NCBI GenBank assembly: GCA_007130525.1
Contig: SLSJ01000002.1
Span: 1 to 41,169 of the forward strand
Source of the DNA: Ectothiorhodospiraceae bacterium
GTDB lineage: Bacteria; Pseudomonadota; Gammaproteobacteria; Nitrococcales; Aquisalimonadaceae
Length of the DNA: 41,169 nt
Direction: 5' to 3'
Positions within the stretch are counted from its first letter, which is position 1, and each line of letters opens with the position of its first letter. This document shows, piece by piece, positions 1 to 20,453 of the stretch. Made by a program: the position numbers and the translations under genes. The notes beneath the pieces were generated by a model, which was given only the letters and a program-made list of their open reading frames with translations, was not told where the DNA came from and ran no database searches.

Positions 1-152
1 CGCACGCCGATCTGCTCGCCGTGACGGGGCGTACTCCCTGCAGCCGGCTCGACGTAGTGTCAGCTACGCCTTCGCCGTCTTCCGGTCCGTGCCCCCCGTC
101 ACTGCGGCATCTCGACGCCCTCGCGACGAACGGCGGTGAGATATGCGGGCTA
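1..152 (-). mobile_element. MITE-like repeat, copy A (cut by window edge)
   Basis: Partial copy of the dispersed element also found at 4248, 8922, 19123 and 29033. Only the arm ending GAACGGCGGTGAGATATGCG and the terminal GGGCTA are inside the window; the other end lies beyond base 1. The TA that bounds the element is at 151-152. Orientation is opposite to copies B, D and E (plus is defined as the end carrying CCGTTCG on the left). It contains no credible gene. Together with the small palindrome that follows, it fills most of the gene-free stretch before prfB; I see nothing else firm between 202 and 329. Confidence 0.85.
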
Positions 153-155
153 GGC

Positions 156-201
156 AGACGCTGATTTGTTCCCGCGAACGTGCGAATGAGAAACAGAGTC
201 T
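156..201. repeat. Short imperfect palindrome, second repeat family
   Basis: The left arm AGACGCTGATTTGTTC (156-171) is imperfectly complementary to the right arm ending CAGAGTCT (185-201). The centre contains GCGAACGTGCGAAT (174-187). The same arm sequences recur at 19040-19058 and 19457-19485 around rnc/era, and a degenerate right arm lies at 35705-35733. Here the two arms are almost adjacent, whereas at rnc/era they are about 400 bp apart. It sits directly after MITE copy A and about 130 bp upstream of prfB. Its function is unknown. Confidence 0.6.
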
Positions 202-329
202 CCGAAGGGGGCGGCGGCTCGCGGATGGCCCAGGCGCCGTGGTGATGGTTCCCGCGCCTGCCCCGTGAGAATCCGGCGCCGATCGTGTACCATCCCGGCT
301 TTTCCCGCATCGCTGGATTCAATACCGAA

Positions 330-1428
330 ATGACGGAAATCAACGCCCTGCTGAACCTCTCCGCGGACCTCCTTGAGCGCGTCGAAGCGCTTAGGGGGTA
401 TCTTTGACTATCCGGGCAAGAAGGATCGCCTGGAGGAAGTGTTGCGCACCCTGGAAGACCCCGGCATCTGGAGCAACCCCGAGCAGGCACAGGCGCTGAA
501 CCGCGAGCGGGCGCAACTCGAGGACACGGTGCAGATGCTTGACACCCTGTCGGCCAATCTCGACGACGTCGCCGAACTGGTGGAGATGGCCGCCGAGGAA
601 GACGACAAGGAGACCCTGTCGTCCATCGAGGCCGATCTGGCAACAGCCCGCCGGCAGGTGGAAAGCCTGGAATTCCGTCGCATGTTTTCCGGCGAGATGG
701 ATTCCAGGAATGCCTTCGTGGATATCCAGGCCGGATCCGGCGGCACCGAGGCGCAGGACTGGGCGGAAATGCTGCTGCGCATGTATCTGCGCTGGGGCGA
801 GCGCCGGGGTTTCAAGACAGAACTGATCGAGGTTTCCGCCGCCGAGGTGGCCGGAATCAAGAGCGCCACCATCCGTTTCGAGGGTGATCACGCTTTCGGC
901 TGGTTACGCACCGAAACGGGCGTCCATCGGCTGGTGCGCAAGTCGCCGTTTGATTCTGGAAACCGTCGCCATACGTCGTTCGCGGCGGTATTCGTGTCGC
1001 CGGAAATCGATGATTCGGTGGACGTGGACGTCAACCCGGCCGACCTGCGCATCGATGTCTACCGTGCCAGCGGCGCCGGCGGCCAGCACGTCAACCGCAC
1101 CGAGTCGGCCGTTCGCATCACCCACGAGCCTACCGGGATCGTGGTGCAGTGCCAGAACGACCGCTCGCAGCACAAGAACAAGGCCACGGCCATGAACCAG
1201 TTGCGTGCCAAGCTCTACGAACTGGAGATGCTGAAACGACGGCAGGCGGCGGAAGCGCTGGAGGACGAGAAGTCCGATATCGGCTGGGGCAGCCAGATTC
1301 GTTCCTACGTTCTCGACCAGTCACGCATCAAGGACCTGCGTACCGGCCTTGAGGTGGGCAATACCCAGGCGGTGCTGGATGGTGACCTCGATCGTTTCAT
1401 TGAAGCCAGCCTCAAGGCCGGTCTGTGA
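330..1428 (+). CDS. prfB: Peptide chain release factor 2 (programmed frameshift)
   Basis: RF2 recognises UGA and UAA stop codons in the ribosomal A site and triggers peptidyl-tRNA hydrolysis. Translation starts at ATG 330, reads 25 codons to an in-frame TGA at 405-407, and continues only after a +1 shift, so the coding sequence is 330-404 joined to 406-1428. The product is 365 aa, the same length as the E. coli protein. The catalytic GGQ falls at residues 250-252 ([13 protein letters not shown]) and the SPF tripeptide that reads the stop codon lies in [15 protein letters not shown] reading frame opened at 373 misses the true N-terminus. lysS follows after 13 bp, the usual gammaproteobacterial prfB-lysS operon. 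The ribosome binding site before ATG 330 is weak. Confidence 0.97.
393..408 (+). promoter_or_regulatory. RF2 programmed +1 frameshift site
   Basis: The sequence AGGGGGTATCTTTGAC combines an internal Shine-Dalgarno-like AGGGGG (393-398), the slippery codon CTT (402-404) and the stop TGA followed by C (405-408). It matches the classical E. coli prfB site as I recall it. It makes RF2 synthesis autoregulatory: when RF2 is scarce the ribosome pauses at UGA and slips to the +1 frame, producing more RF2. Confidence 0.97.
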
Positions 1429-1441
1429 GGACGCGTGAGAA

Positions 1442-2950
1442 ATGAGCAACGGGGCCAGGGAAAACGACGAGAACAAGCTGATTGCCCGCAGACGGGAGAA
1501 GCTCGCGGCACTGCGCGAGCAGGGTAACGCCTTCCCCAACGATTTTCGCCGCAACGCCTGGGCTGGTGATCTGCAGCGAAATTACGCCGCGGAAGATGCG
1601 GGGCAACTGGAGGCCGCCGCCATTCCGGTTCGGGTCGCCGGGCGCATGATGGCCAAACGGGTGATGGGCAAGGCCAGTTTCAGCAGCCTTCAGGACATGA
1701 GCGGCCGCATCCAGTTGTTTCTGAGTCGGGACGAACTGCCGGAAGGGCGTTACCAGGCATTCAAGACATGGGATGTGGGCGATATCGTCGCCGCCGAGGG
1801 AGTGCTGTTCCGAACGCAGAAGGGCGAGTTGTCGGTCAAGTGCTCCGACGCACGCCTGCTTACCAAGTCGCTGCGGCCGCTGCCGGAGAAATACCACGGT
1901 CTAAGCGATCAGGAAGTGCGTTACCGGCAGCGTTACGTGGACCTGATCATGAATCCGGAAGTGCGGGACGTGTTCGTTCTGCGCAGCCGGCTGATCCAGC
2001 GCATCCGCGACTTTCTCAACGCGCGCCGCTTCCTGGAAGTGGAAACCCCGATGATGCAGCAGATTCCCGGTGGCGCCACCGCCCGGCCTTTCATTACGCA
2101 CCATAACGTGCTGAACATGCCGCTCTACCTTCGGGTGGCGCCTGAGCTTTACCTCAAGCGGCTTGTCGTGGGTGGCTTCGACAGGGTCTACGAGATCAAC
2201 CGCAGTTTCCGCAATGAAGGTGTCTCCACACGACACAATCCGGAATTCACGATGCTCGAGTTCTATCAGGCGTATGCCGATTACCATGACCTGATGGACC
2301 TGACGGAAGAGCTGCTCCGTGACCTGGCCGTGGAACTCCTGGACGGCACCATGCTGCACTACCAGGGCGAGGATATCGACATCGGCAGCCGCTTCACCCG
2401 CAAGACATTGCGGCAGGCTATTCTTGAGCATAATCCGGATCTGCAGGCGGAGGATATCGACAGCCTGGAGCGGGCACGGAGTGTGGCCGAGCGTTTGGGA
2501 CTGCCGATCAGGGCCGCGGACGGGCTGGGCAAGCTGCAGCTCGAGCTCTTCGAAGCCACCGTCGAACACCGGCTTCGGGAACCCACCTTCATCACGCAGT
2601 ATCCGCTGGAAGTCTCGCCACTGGCCCGTCCACTGGATGACGATCCGTTTGTTTGTGAACGATTCGAGCTGTTTGTCGGCGGCAGGGAGATCGCCAACGG
2701 CTTTTCCGAGCTGAATGACGCCGAGGACCAGGCCGAGCGTTTCCGCAAACAGGCCAGGGAGAAGGAAGCCGGTGACGAGGAGGCCATGCACTACGACGCC
2801 GACTTCATTCGCGCCCTGGAGTACGGCCTGCCGCCGACAGCGGGCGAGGGCATCGGCATCGACCGCCTGGTCATGCTCTATGCCGACCAGGCTTCGATCC
2901 GCGACGTGCTGCTGTTTCCTGCCATGCGCCCCGAGGTGGACCAGGATTGA
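1442..2950 (+). CDS. lysS: Lysyl-tRNA synthetase, class II
   Basis: Charges tRNA-Lys with lysine in the cytoplasm. The 502-aa length fits bacterial class II LysRS. An N-terminal OB-fold anticodon-binding domain (roughly residues 60-160) precedes the catalytic core. Motif 2 is visible as [19 protein letters not shown] and motif 3 as [12 protein letters not shown] (from residue 468). The second gene of the prfB-lysS pair, it starts at ATG 1442, 13 bp after prfB, and is probably cotranscribed. It ends 13 bp from the convergent ygfZ gene, with no clear intrinsic terminator between them. Confidence 0.97.
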
Positions 2951-2963
2951 CCGCGCGTCGGGT

Positions 2964-3965
2964 TCACACTTGGTAGGGAAGTTCGCCGAATCCGACGGCC
3001 ACGCCGGCGACCGTGAGATCCTGACGGTCGCGGTTATCGAGTTTCAGAACCGCCAGCAGTTCCAGCGTATTCTCCCGGCCGGCCGCCGCGCGGACCACCT
3101 CGCCGGCGTTGCCGCCATCCGCCGTGGTTACACGCTCACCCGGCCGGGGCAGTGCAGCACCGACGGCCGGGCCGGAAAGGCGGAACATGCGTCTGCTCGG
3201 CTTGCCGAGGTAGTGCATTCTGGCGACGACCTCCTGGCCCGGATAGCAGCCCTTGCGGAAATGGATTCCGTCCAGGAGTTCCAGGTTCACTTGCTGGGGC
3301 ACGAACTTCTCGCTTGTGGAGGGATAGATTTCCGGCAGGCCATGGATGATATCCAGAAGATCCCACACACCGGCGTCGGCCACGGTCACGCCGGTGGCAA
3401 GACTTGACCATACCGCCTTCGCCTCGTCGGCGGGCGCCAGCACCAGAAGGCGATCAGGCTCTCCGCCCAGGGTGATCACCACCAGGTCACCGGCACGGTG
3501 CACCCGGCCCGGCCCTTCGGCGACGCTGCCGGCGAGTTCGTCCAGTGAATTCAGGGTGGCGGCGCCTATCAGCCCGATCCCGGCGTTATCCGCGGTAGCG
3601 TCTTCCAGGGAGACATTCGAGCGCAGCACGAACATGCGGAGTCGGCGCAACATTCCGTCCAGGAGATCCTGCCGGGTCAGCAGGAGGAAGCCCTGGTCAT
3701 TGTGCAGCACGCGGAACAGTCCGAGGAGTCGACCCTTCGGATTGCAGTAGCCGCTGAGCACCCAGCGGTCGTCGACCAGTTGCCGGATATCCTGGGTCAA
3801 CTGCGCATGCAGGAAGTCGCGCGCATCCGGGCCATGGACGCGGATCACCCCCAGATCCTCGAGCGGAACCACGGCGCCTTCACCAAAGGCGGCGCTACGG
3901 GACTGCTCCGGAGTGGAGGCGTGTTTTTCAATACCGTCCAGTAACTTGTGCCAGTCAAAGGCCAT
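2964..3965 (-). CDS. ygfZ: YgfZ/GcvT-family folate-binding protein
   Basis: Folate-dependent protein that helps maintain certain iron-sulfur enzymes, for example MiaB-type tRNA modification. The family signature KGCYPGQE lies at residues 238-245, with the functional cysteine at 240. I chose the start at 3965 (MAFDWHKLLDG), giving 333 aa, because GGAAG lies 8 bases upstream and the 47 codons before it look non-coding. It is convergent with lysS and divergent from the DUF1674 gene. In E. coli ygfZ lies near sdhE (ygfY) and ygfX; here those genes are a few kilobases away beyond the sdh operon, so the neighbourhood is loosely kept. Confidence 0.93.
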   Translation of the reverse strand: MAFDWHKLLDGIEKHASTPEQSRSAAFGEGAVVPLEDLGVIRVHGPDARDFLHAQLTQDIRQLVDDRWVLSGYCNPKGRLLGLFRVLHNDQGFLLLTRQDLLDGMLRRLRMFVLRSNVSLEDATADNAGIGLIGAATLNSLDELAGSVAEGPGRVHRAGDLVVITLGGEPDRLLVLAPADEAKAVWSSLATGVTVADAGVWDLLDIIHGLPEIYPSTSEKFVPQQVNLELLDGIHFRKGCYPGQEVVARMHYLGKPSRRMFRLSGPAVGAALPRPGERVTTADGGNAGEVVRAAAGRENTLELLAVLKLDNRDRQDLTVAGVAVGFGELPYQV

Positions 3966-4064
3966 CGTCGACGCTTCCGTATATTGCAGTGCGGAAAAAG
4001 TAATTTTGGTATGGCATAATGCCGGCAGAGCGAGATGCAGCAGTCGTTTCGGAGGCGAGGTGTC

Positions 4065-4250
4065 ATGGGACACGATATTACCGGCAGCGAATCCGGAACA
4101 ACCCAAGCGCGCTGCCGCAAGGATGCAAAGCCTACCACGATGGATCCACGGGAGCCTGGCAGCTGGCCCAAGGAAATCGGCGGTCAGCCGGGGCCGGAGC
4201 CCACCCGTTACGGTGACTGGGAAAAGAACGGACGTTGCTCGGATTTCTAG
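4065..4250 (+). CDS. DUF1674 / SDHAF4-like SDH assembly factor
   Basis: A 61-aa protein whose C-terminal half carries the DUF1674 signature: KEIGGQPGPEPTRYGDWE followed by KNGRCSDF. Mitochondrial SDHAF4 binds flavinylated SdhA and promotes its assembly with SdhB; the bacterial role is inferred from that family and from the location just before sdhCDAB. I prefer ATG 4065, with GGAGG at 4051-4055, over the in-frame ATG at 4035, which would add ten residues. The stop codon TAG (4248-4250) is formed by the left end of MITE copy B, so the element lies flush against the final codon. About 580 bp separates it from sdhC, so cotranscription is uncertain. Confidence 0.88.
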   Translation: MGHDITGSESGTTQARCRKDAKPTTMDPREPGSWPKEIGGQPGPEPTRYGDWEKNGRCSDF

Positions 4251-4431
4251 CCTGCATACCTCACCGCCGTTCGTTGCGAGGGCGTCGAGATGCCGCTGTG
4301 ACGGGCCGGCACGGAGCGGATGACGGCGAAGGCGTAGATGACACTATGTCGAACCGGCTGGAGGGAGTACGCCCCGACACGGCGAGCAGATCGGCATGCA
4401 TAGTAGAAGGGCAGGTGAGATATGCAGGCTA
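4248..4431 (+). mobile_element. MITE-like repeat, copy B (complete)
   Basis: A complete 184-bp element bounded by TA at 4248-4249 and 4430-4431 (CTAG at each end). The terminal arms are GCCTGCATACCTCACC and GGTGAGATATGCAGGC. Other copies have CCCGC/GCGGG at the tip; here both arms are changed to CCTGC/GCAGG, so pairing is kept. One further position (ATACC against GATAT) is unpaired on this strand. The interior contains a short hairpin around TAGATGACACTA. It carries no gene, although several chance reading frames cross it. It lies between the DUF1674 gene and sdhC. Confidence 0.88.
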
Positions 4432-4833
4432 GTGTCCCTGTTCGCGACAGCGGACCCGGCCGCGTCCGGCGTTTCCCGTGCGTGTCCGGCGCCTGGTGGC
4501 GGACCGGGTGGACGTGATGCGCCGGATCTCGTATCGGCAACGAGGCGTTACCGAGGCGGTTGCATGAATGCATGGGTGTCGCATCGGCGGACCCGGCTAT
4601 GCTTACCGTCGGATCCTTGTTTGACAGGACTTGGGCTACGACTGGGTTTCCGGGATATCACGATCCGCATTCGGCGGCTCGAAACCTTGGATCGGTCTTG
4701 ATGGAAAACAGCCGTTGGTGATTTGCACCGGCTGCTTGCTGCCGGACTATCGCGACGCAGCTGCGATTCTTATGCCCGGGTCCGGACCAGCCATTGCGCT
4801 GAAAATACCGTGCGCCATGTGGAGCGAGCATTC
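4432..4833 (+). other. Gene-free leader upstream of sdhC
   Basis: About 400 bp without a credible gene. It must contain the sdh promoter unless transcription enters from the DUF1674 gene. A TTGACA at 4621-4626 has no good -10 box at 16-18 bp, so I do not call a promoter. GGAGCGAG at 4821-4828 is the sdhC ribosome binding site. Reading frames across this stretch lack family features and run into sdhC in the wrong frame. Confidence 0.6.
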
Positions 4834-5226
4834 ATGCAGACTGACAATCGGCCACTTTCGCCTCACCTCCAGGTTTACAGACCCCAACTGACATCGGTGC
4901 TGTCCATTTGCCACAGGGCCGCCGGCGTATTGCTCGCCGGGGGCTCCCTCCTCCTGATTTACTGGCTGGCCGCGGTCGCCTCGGGGCCGGAGGCCTATGC
5001 CACCGCACAGGCCGTGCTGGGCAGCCTGCCAGCAAGACTGCTGCTGTTCGGCTGGACACTCGCACTGTTCTATCACCTGGGCAACGGGATACGACACCTG
5101 TTCTGGGACGCCGGCAAGGGTTTTGAACTCCGTACCGCTTATGCGTCCGGCTATGCCGTGATCGCGTCCGCCGTGGTTCTGACGCTTCTGGTATGGATCC
5201 TGGCAACGACCGTGGGAGGCGCGTGA
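4834..5226 (+). CDS. sdhC: Succinate dehydrogenase cytochrome b556 subunit
   Basis: Membrane anchor that holds heme b and forms the ubiquinone site of complex II with SdhD. Start at ATG 4834 ([17 protein letters not shown]), with GGAGCGAG upstream, giving 130 aa; upstream in-frame codons look non-coding. Three membrane segments are apparent. The quinone-site serine and arginine are in SICHRAAGV, and the heme-ligand histidine is in [14 protein letters not shown]. The gene overlaps sdhD by one base (TGATG). The sequence style resembles the alphaproteobacterial/mitochondrial subunit. Confidence 0.95.
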
Positions 5227-17971: not shown

Positions 17972-18365
17972 ACAGTTCAACCGTCTTTCCGCGCGGTCGT
18001 TGCCGGACAGCCAATCGGGAATCACCCTCCTTGGGCTCCTTGCTGTCCTTGTTGTCGTAGCTTTTGTCGGCCTGATCGCGATACGCCTCACGCCCGTGTA
18101 CCTGGAATCGCTGGAGGTCGGATCGGTATTGCGCTCGATGGAACGTGATGACGCATTGCATGGTGCCAGCCGTGCAGATCTGCGCTCGGCACTGAATCGT
18201 CGACTGCAGGTCAACAACATTGACAGCGTTGGCCGCGACGATGTGCAGTTCAACGACGCCGGGCATGGCATGGAGATCGTTGTTGACTACGAGGTGCGCG
18301 TACCCCTGGTCGCGAATCTCGATGCCATTGCCAAGTTCCGCAAAGAGGCCTTGATTCCACGGTGA
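17955..18365 (+). CDS. DUF4845 single-pass membrane protein
   Basis: A 136-aa protein of unknown function found between lepB and rnc in many gammaproteobacteria. Start is GTG 17955, inside the end of lepB, with GGAG 8 bp upstream. A membrane helix (about residues 22-43) begins SGITLLGLLAVLVVVAFVGL, reminiscent of a type IV prepilin N-terminus, but with glycine where pilins have glutamate at position 5. The rest is a small soluble domain, VPLVANLDAIAKF near the end. It overlaps rnc by four bases (GTGA). Confidence 0.85.
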   Translation: MNASNRQFNRLSARSLPDSQSGITLLGLLAVLVVVAFVGLIAIRLTPVYLESLEVGSVLRSMERDDALHGASRADLRSALNRRLQVNNIDSVGRDDVQFNDAGHGMEIVVDYEVRVPLVANLDAIAKFRKEALIPR

Positions 18366-19051
18366 CGGAAAGTTTCGAGAGTCTGCTGGAACGGTTGCAT
18401 TACCGGTTCAGCGAACCCGACCTGCTTGAGGAAGCGCTGACCCATCGGAGTGTCAGCGAGCGCAACAACGAGCGCCTGGAGTTTCTGGGCGACAGCATCC
18501 TGAATTTCGTCATCGCGTCCGAACTCTTTGTCCTGCTGCCCAATGAAACCGAAGGCGGGCTCAGCCGTATGCGAGCCAGCCTGGTGAACCGGGAGAGTCT
18601 TGCGGCGATCGCCCGACAGCTGGACCTCGGGGAGCATCTGCGGCTTGGTTCCGGCGAACTCAAGAGCGGTGGACGCCGGCGGGAATCGATCCTCTCCGAT
18701 GCGCTTGAGGGTGTCATGGGCGCCGTGTACCTGGATGGAGGTTACGAAGCCAGCCGTGCGTTGATTCTGCGGTTGTTTCATGAGCGCCTGCGCACATTGC
18801 CCTCGGCACAGGAACTCAAGGACCCCAAGACCCGACTACAGGAGTACCTACAGTCCACAGGAAAACCGCTTCCTCTGTATGAGGTTACGGCGATTGCCGG
18901 GAAAGCGCATGAACAGGTGTTCCGGGTTGAGTGCAGTGTCGACGGGGTGCCGACCGTAACCCGCGGCGAAGCCGGGAGTCGACGTGGCGCGGAGCAGGAA
19001 GCGGCCAGGGTGATGCTCGACAAGCTCCGTTGCGGCCAAGGGAGACGCTGA
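18362..19051 (+). CDS. rnc: Ribonuclease III
   Basis: Cleaves double-stranded RNA, processing rRNA precursors and some mRNAs. The 229-aa protein has the catalytic box NERLEFLGDS (E40, D44) and SDALEGVMGAVYLDGG (D113, E116), followed by a C-terminal double-stranded-RNA-binding domain (from about residue 155; KDPKTRLQEYLQ, GSRRGAEQEAARVML). Start GTG 18362 overlaps the DUF4845 stop. The last codons and the stop TGA (19049-19051) lie inside the left arm of the inverted repeat at 19040-19058, so the C-terminal GRR comes from the repeat. Confidence 0.96.
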   Translation: MTESFESLLERLHYRFSEPDLLEEALTHRSVSERNNERLEFLGDSILNFVIASELFVLLPNETEGGLSRMRASLVNRESLAAIARQLDLGEHLRLGSGELKSGGRRRESILSDALEGVMGAVYLDGGYEASRALILRLFHERLRTLPSAQELKDPKTRLQEYLQSTGKPLPLYEVTAIAGKAHEQVFRVECSVDGVPTVTRGEAGSRRGAEQEAARVMLDKLRCGQGRR

Positions 19052-19485
19052 TTTATTCCCGCGATCTCGCTCGTGTCGCATGGCAGCCTGACAAGGCGCG
19101 GTACCGGTTCGGTAGCTCGAGCTAGCCCGCATTTCTCACCGCCGTTCGTTGCGAGGGCGCCGGGATGCCGCTGTGACGGGGGGCACGTACCGGAAGACTG
19201 CGAAGGCGTAGCTGACACTACGTCGAGCCGGCTGCAGGGAGTACGCCCCGACACAGCGAGCAGATCGGCGTGCGTAGTAGAAGGGCGGCGAGAAATGCGG
19301 GCTAGCGGGCCGGCGACCCAACACCGCCAGGGGCGAAGCGGCCGAGCCCCAAGGGGTTGGCGCCGTACATTCCGAATGCGGTGTTGCGCTGCTTGACCGC
19401 AGAGTGACTGCGGCGCTGCACAGCGCGCCTTGCCTCGGATAAAATGCGATGCCAAGGCGAACGTGCGAATAAATCAGCGTCTCCC
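19040..19485. mobile_element. Composite inverted-repeat element splitting rnc and era
   Basis: A perfect 19-bp inverted repeat, GGGAGACGCTGATTTATTC at 19040-19058 and its complement at 19467-19485, encloses 408 bp. Pairing resumes further in: TCGCAT, about ten bases, then CAAGGCGCG on the left has a matching complement on the right (about 19424-19452), so the arms are roughly 60 bp with interruptions. Inside lies MITE copy D (19123-19304) and about 115 bp with several small hairpins, such as CCGCAG/CTGCGG. No transposase or credible gene is present. In related bacteria rnc and era usually abut, so this is a likely insertion. Confidence 0.65.
19123..19304 (+). mobile_element. MITE-like repeat, copy D (complete)
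   Basis: A 182-bp copy bounded by TA at 19123-19124 and 19303-19304 (CTAG at both ends). Its arms read GCCCGCATTTCTCACC and GGCGAGAAATGCGGGC: where other copies have ATATCTC/GAGATAT, both arms here have ATTTCTC/GAGAAAT, a paired change. The interior hairpin GTAGCTGACACTAC is present. It is nested inside the longer inverted repeat between rnc and era. Confidence 0.88.
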
Positions 19486-19532
19486 AAGAGGGGGGGCAAG
19501 GTGGCGAATGAAGGGTGTGGACGTCTCCGATC

Positions 19533-20453
19533 ATGACCGTGATGGCTGAATCGGAAGAGCCGGGTATCCGCTGTGGCTTCGTCGCACTGGTGGGACGACC
19601 CAATGTGGGCAAGTCGACGTTGCTCAACCGCCTGCTGGGCATGAAGATCAGCATCATCTCCCGCAAGCCTCAGACTACCCGCAACCGCATCCTCGGCATC
19701 GATACCCGGGAAGGTACCCAGACGGTGTACGTGGATACGCCCGGTCTGCATCGCCGCCAGCATCGCGCCCTTAACAGATCGCTCAACCGCGCCGCGGTGT
19801 CCGCGCTGCACGACGTGGATCTGGCGGTGTTCGTGGTCGAGGCCCTGCGCTGGTGCGACGACGACGAGCTGGTTCTGGAGAAAATCAAGGCGGCCGGGGT
19901 TCCCGCGCTGGTTGCGATCAACAAGGTGGACAAGGTTGCGCGCAAGGAATTGCTGTTGCCGTACCTGCAGCAGCTTGCCGCACGCCACGATTTCGCCGCC
20001 CTCGTGCCGGTGTCGGCACGGCGCGGCCGTAATCTCGACGCCCTGCGCAACGACATTGTCCGACATCTGCCGGTAACCGGGCAGTACATGTTTCCCGAGG
20101 ACCAGATCACGGATCGCAGTGAGCGCTTCCTGGTCGCCGAACTGGTCCGCGAACAGCTCATGGAAACACTGGGACAGGAAGTGCCGTATTCCACGGCCGT
20201 TGAAATCGAGTCATTCGAGCGAAAGGGCGATCTGACGCGTATCCATGTGCTGATCTGGGTGGAGCGCCCCGGGCAGAAGGCCATCGTGATCGGCAAGGGC
20301 GGTCATCAACTCAAGCAGATCGGACAGAAGGCACGGCCGCAGATCGAGCGGCTGCTGGGAACGCGCGTGTTCATGGAACTGTGGGTCAAGGTGCGTGAGG
20401 GGTGGGCCGATGACGAGCGCGCCGTGCAGAGTCTCGGCTACGACGGCAACTGA
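19533..20453 (+). CDS. era: GTPase Era
   Basis: Essential GTPase that binds the 3' end of 16S rRNA during 30S assembly. The G1 motif is GRPNVGKST, switch I KPQTTRNRI, G3 DTPGLH and G4 NKVDK. The C-terminal KH domain contains IVIGKGGHQLKQIG. I favour ATG 19533 (306 aa), but GTG 19515 and ATG 19542 are also in frame and no ribosome site decides. It heads era-recO-pdxJ-acpS and is cut off from rnc by about 480 bp of repeat-rich DNA, which therefore must hold or carry its promoter activity, or be read through. Confidence 0.96.
   Translation: MTVMAESEEPGIRCGFVALVGRPNVGKSTLLNRLLGMKISIISRKPQTTRNRILGIDTREGTQTVYVDTPGLHRRQHRALNRSLNRAAVSALHDVDLAVFVVEALRWCDDDELVLEKIKAAGVPALVAINKVDKVARKELLLPYLQQLAARHDFAALVPVSARRGRNLDALRNDIVRHLPVTGQYMFPEDQITDRSERFLVAELVREQLMETLGQEVPYSTAVEIESFERKGDLTRIHVLIWVERPGQKAIVIGKGGHQLKQIGQKARPQIERLLGTRVFMELWVKVREGWADDERAVQSLGYDGN

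Follow-up and report, generated by a model that had tools for sequence, protein, structure and literature searches.

Nested insertion of two transposon-derived elements as the very likely origin of the rnc-era spacer in an Ectothiorhodospiraceae bacterium

The DNA that separates rnc from era in this genome is almost certainly the product of two successive insertions of non-autonomous transposons, an IS5-type element and, within it, an IS1380-type element. The locus lies in a 41,169-nucleotide stretch (here, the window) whose gene order is lepA, lepB, a small gene, rnc, era, recO, and pdxJ; judging by its position, the small gene is presumably DUF4845-like, and it had no NCBIfam match. According to its translation, rnc (18362 to 19051, forward strand) matches the RNase III model TIGR02191 over its full length (residues 9 to 222 of 229), and era (19533 to 20453, forward strand) matches NF000908/TIGR00436, with a likely ATG at 19533. 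From the rnc stop to this ATG we count 481 nt, in line with the roughly 480 bp of the initial annotation, whose structural reading, a long inverted repeat that encloses a MITE and splits rnc from era, is correct. The anatomy of the spacer, its target-site duplications, the empty sites for both elements, and the terminal repeats shared with transposase genes can be read directly, and they resolve to the base a MITE inserted into a MITE inside a normally tight, conserved operon.

The outer element spans positions 19041 to 19484 and ends in 18-bp terminal inverted repeats, GGAGACGCTGATTTATTC on the left (19041 to 19058, forward strand) and its counterpart on the right (19467 to 19484, reverse strand). 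An identical 4 bp, CAAG, stands beside both repeats as the target-site duplication (19037 to 19040 and 19485 to 19488). A 19-bp perfect inverted repeat with longer arms had been described here. The arms exist (19040 to 19081 and 19444 to 19485; 42 nt, 79% complementary, with the outermost 19 bp perfect), but the 19th pair is not part of the terminal repeat: it is formed between the two target duplications, by the last base (G) of the left CAAG and the first base (C) of the right CAAG. Six uninterrupted copies of the outer element, all without the inner MITE, occur in the same genome (contigs C225, C50, C81, C111, C187, and C183). The copy on C225 is exactly 264 bp long, that is, the 444 bp of the window copy minus the 176 bp of the inner element and one 4-bp duplication. 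The stretches that flank the inner MITE align with these uninterrupted copies, which rules out an unrelated third segment; the 115 bp previously set apart as other hairpin-rich DNA form the right-hand portion of the outer element.

We searched the genome (2.65 Mb in 287 contigs; incomplete, at 87%) for further copies, whose numbers are derived from pattern counts. With up to three mismatches, the outer end had 56 matches against none for the reversed control, so its occurrences are not due to chance. A looser pattern gave 41 outer ends in this genome, 252 to 285 in three congeners, and between 3 and 179 in each of ten further genomes from the same bacterial family. Congeneric copies measure 269 to 271 bp, and at least eight have exact YTAR-type duplications, CTAG/CTAG and TTAA/TTAA among them. 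The flanking consensus over 50 outer ends is YTAR, from which the CAAG in the window deviates at the second base, where an A is found in 6 of the 50. Insertion of IS5 elements typically comes with a YTAR target duplication (PMC10359306).

In another genome of the same family (G004), a 1202-bp element is present four times, bounded by ends GGAAACGCTGATTTATTC and GGAAGCGCTGATCTAATG and by YTAR flanks, which agree between the two sides in three of the four copies. Its product is a 327-aa transposase with a match to the IS5-family model NF033581 (E = 1.5e-101). The GGAAACGCTGATTTATTC end of the element shows one mismatch to the outer end in the window; the other end is more diverged. Because similar ends accompany an IS5-family transposase in G004 and the duplications are of the YTAR type, we classify the outer element, on sequence grounds, as an IS5-type MITE. 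Like IS5-derived MITEs, it shares its ends with a transposase-bearing element, is flanked by a 4-bp duplication, and is short, free of transposase, and present in many copies; unlike them, its family is strongly base paired along the whole length, with paired changes. The 87% complete genome yielded no DDE_Tnp_1 transposase gene and no intact member of either transposase family searched, and the literature searched offered no matching name for the 264- to 271-bp sequence family. Near-perfect palindromes of 48 bp, made of two outer-type ends only and flanked by YTAR, are minimal derivatives of this MITE (L045, positions 393 to 440, on C142; L047, C163:22529-22576; L048, C186:6206-6253). A core of about 53 nt (positions 163 to 215 of the outer element) recurs with 77 to 84% identity in other genera of the order, in several copies per genome (loci L168 to L174, in G011, G034, G006, G010, G004, G005, and G038).

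The MITE that the initial annotation had placed within the inverted repeat ("copy D") occupies positions 19126 to 19301. It is 176 bp long, has ends CCCGCATTTCTCACCGCC, and is bounded by its own CTAG duplication (19122 to 19125 and 19302 to 19305), as judged from an empty outer copy and from other inner copies, 24 of which are listed with their flanks. A further inverted repeat with 27-nt arms (19121 to 19147 and 19280 to 19306; 93%) belongs to it. The best-matching empty outer copy has CTAC once at the inner target place, where the empty copy on C187 reads agctcgagCTACcggg. The tetranucleotides beside inner copies are CTAG, TTAA, or TTAG, and in most copies the two sides agree. The inner end gave 577 matches at up to three mismatches and none in the reversed control, which excludes chance and corresponds to about 290 copies in the genome.

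On contig C260 of this genome, the end CCCGCATATCTCACCG lies within about 200 bp upstream of the N-terminal remnant of an IS1380 transposase, only about 85 residues long (PF13701, E = 3.4e-16; NF033539). With a terminal repeat shared with this remnant, at one end only, and a short target duplication, the inner element can be assigned by its sequence to the IS1380-type MITEs. For piggyBac, whose target duplication is TTAA, IS1380 serves as the outgroup from prokaryotes (PMC10813416). Like IS1380 ends, the inner ends begin with CCC, and the 4-bp duplications resemble TTAA. Unlike IS1380 elements, the family is represented here by a truncated transposase remnant and numerous 176-bp copies; a full IS1380 element with inner-type ends was not found, one such end being seen. 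In the C260 locus (L213, positions 1 to 5200), a copy of the inner MITE is inserted downstream of the remnant. No inner copy was found in the three congeners, and one inner-type copy, with 77% identity, occurs in a genome from another family of the class. The window holds more inner copies at 1 to 153 (cut by the contig start), 4247 to 4432, 8918 to 9085, 29033 to 29215, and 33018 to 33063 (partial). At the contig start, an outer-type end (154 to 203) directly adjoins the inner MITE, and one CTAG is common to both. About 5 of the 59 outer ends in the loci examined adjoin an inner end in this way, since both elements target YTAR.

The inner MITE came second, because it lies inside the outer element and is bounded by a target duplication of its own. 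It resembles its other copies in this genome more closely (93 to 96% identity) than the outer element resembles its own (81 to 90%, best long matches), which fits its later arrival. On C262, match coordinates point to a second outer copy that appears to be interrupted by an inner one. The sequence of events would thus begin with the 264-bp IS5-type MITE entering near the 3' end of rnc with duplication of CAAG. A TGA within its terminal repeat would then have supplied a new stop, pushing the native tail of rnc downstream, and the 176-bp IS1380-type MITE would later have entered the apical loop of the outer element, duplicating CTAG.

Translation confirms that the last three rnc codons (GRR) and the stop come from the left end of the outer element and its target duplication, much as had been noted for the left arm. 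When the two flanks are joined through a single CAAG, rnc stays open for 702 nt and ends in CGQEGGQGGE and a stop at 19511, with 21 nt from there to the era ATG. The displaced ancestral tail and stop now lie in non-coding DNA at 19489 to 19511 (forward strand). As the joined flanks restore both a longer rnc and a short gap to era, we conclude from the sequence that the rnc tail has been truncated and replaced by the insertion. RNase III itself is probably intact despite its new tail, given that the TIGR02191 model still matches over the full length.

To place the insertion in context, we compared the junction across 29 relatives, the nearest in the same genus and the farthest in the same order. 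In all of them the two genes overlap or are almost contiguous, as the initial annotation had stated for many gammaproteobacteria. With one exception, era or its alignment starts between -14 and about +45 nt from the rnc stop; in the exceptional relative (L036), the alignment begins at +80, yet a start codon is present at -4. The orthologous junctions, which had been proposed as a check, lack the insertion in 29 of 29. The idea of a conserved host regulatory element is rejected on this absence. Since the junction is empty in relatives and both elements are dispersed, the insertion is most likely a chance, lineage-specific event that was tolerated, rather than an evolved control element.

The long stem expected in the transcript is borne out by prediction: the spacer RNA folds far more stably than its shuffles (z = -9.7); for the uninterrupted copy on C225, z is -12.0. 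Across 25 copies of the outer element, taken from four genomes, 97.7% of pair cells are standard. Two-sided changes affect 18 of 96 pairs, compared with a mean of 9.6 in shuffles and 3 to 5 when partners are slid. These figures call for caution: many of the changes separate two subfamilies and may represent few events, and the pairing of the terminal repeats and of the palindromic YTAR target has its reason in transposition. Some constraint on pairing outside the ends is nevertheless likely, because the internal helix 33-59/113-136 of the outer element also varies on both sides. An Rfam search returned only chance matches to microRNA families.

What the insertion means for expression can be approached by analogy. 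In Escherichia coli, the rnc stop and the era start overlap and are translationally coupled, and RNase III controls its own expression by way of a stem in the rnc-era 5' UTR (PMC10582724). Direct coupling of era to rnc translation would have been broken by the insertion and is probably lost here. A read-through transcript would fold into a long hairpin open to RNase III, as with the Correia elements (CREE/NEMIS) of Neisseria, MITE hairpins that are bound and cleaved by RNase III in neisserial mRNAs (PMC2649163). Cleavage of the rnc-era transcript at the spacer is therefore plausible by this comparison. Correia elements are likewise small, hairpin-forming, high-copy MITEs that enter mRNAs; they differ in terminal repeats, size, and target, and the motifs AACAAAAA or AAATTTAAA that mark the variants of their terminal repeat (PMC2649163) occur in neither the outer end GGAGACGCTGATTTATTC nor the inner end CCCGCATTTCTCACC. 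The E. coli operon likewise places a stem in the mRNA of RNase III itself, and there the enzyme acts on it (PMC10582724), but that stem consists of host sequence upstream of rnc, whereas here a transposon insertion lies between rnc and era. Nothing links the spacer hairpin specifically to rnc, and any cleavage would be a by-product of the insertion, given that both elements are dispersed, the junction is empty in relatives, and two transpositions explain the anatomy.

Among the alternatives, one has the insertion uncoupling era from rnc and supplying a promoter within the MITE, as Correia elements sometimes do. A promoter-like TGCACA-17-TAAAAT is present at 19417 to 19445 (9 of 12 matches; mean of 0.0 in shuffles), no terminator-like site was seen, and era begins 481 nt beyond the rnc stop. 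We consider this scenario unlikely, as the site is a consensus match only, with 4 of 6 matches in the -35 hexamer, and it needs bases that most outer copies lack. Selection of the nested repeat as a regulatory RNA, whose stem RNase III would cut to tune its own expression and that of Era, seems quite unlikely to us. It would account for the very stable fold and would accord with the two-sided changes that keep the stems of the outer family and with the cleavage of Correia hairpins in mRNAs (PMC2649163). Yet no element stands at this junction in any relative examined, both elements occur at many unrelated sites, and the known autoregulatory stem is in the 5' UTR, not intergenic; moreover, the paired changes of the outer family arose at other sites and are silent on the rnc-era locus. 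It is decidedly improbable that the transposon hairpin has replaced the coupling, with RNase III setting the ratio of itself to Era through MITE cleavage in a young feedback loop made by the insertion.

The nested insertion thus brings to light two abundant MITE families that are new but of an already known kind. The IS5-type family is common to the whole bacterial family and appears to have kept its base-paired structure through two-sided changes, and the IS1380-type family has reached its high copy number in one species, with none found in three congeners. If RNase III does cut the hairpin, the locus would be a natural experiment on how an operon is rewired by mobile DNA when it encodes the nuclease that acts on that DNA.

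That the spacer is an assembly artifact joining repeats is hardly credible: contigs of this assembly do often begin or end within the inner MITE, but both elements are complete with their duplications intact, and, as would not be expected of a misjoin, the flanks restore an rnc frame followed closely by era. Contigs C28, C141, and C146, for example, start in the inner MITE, whose abundance probably caused the fragmentation of the assembly into 287 contigs.
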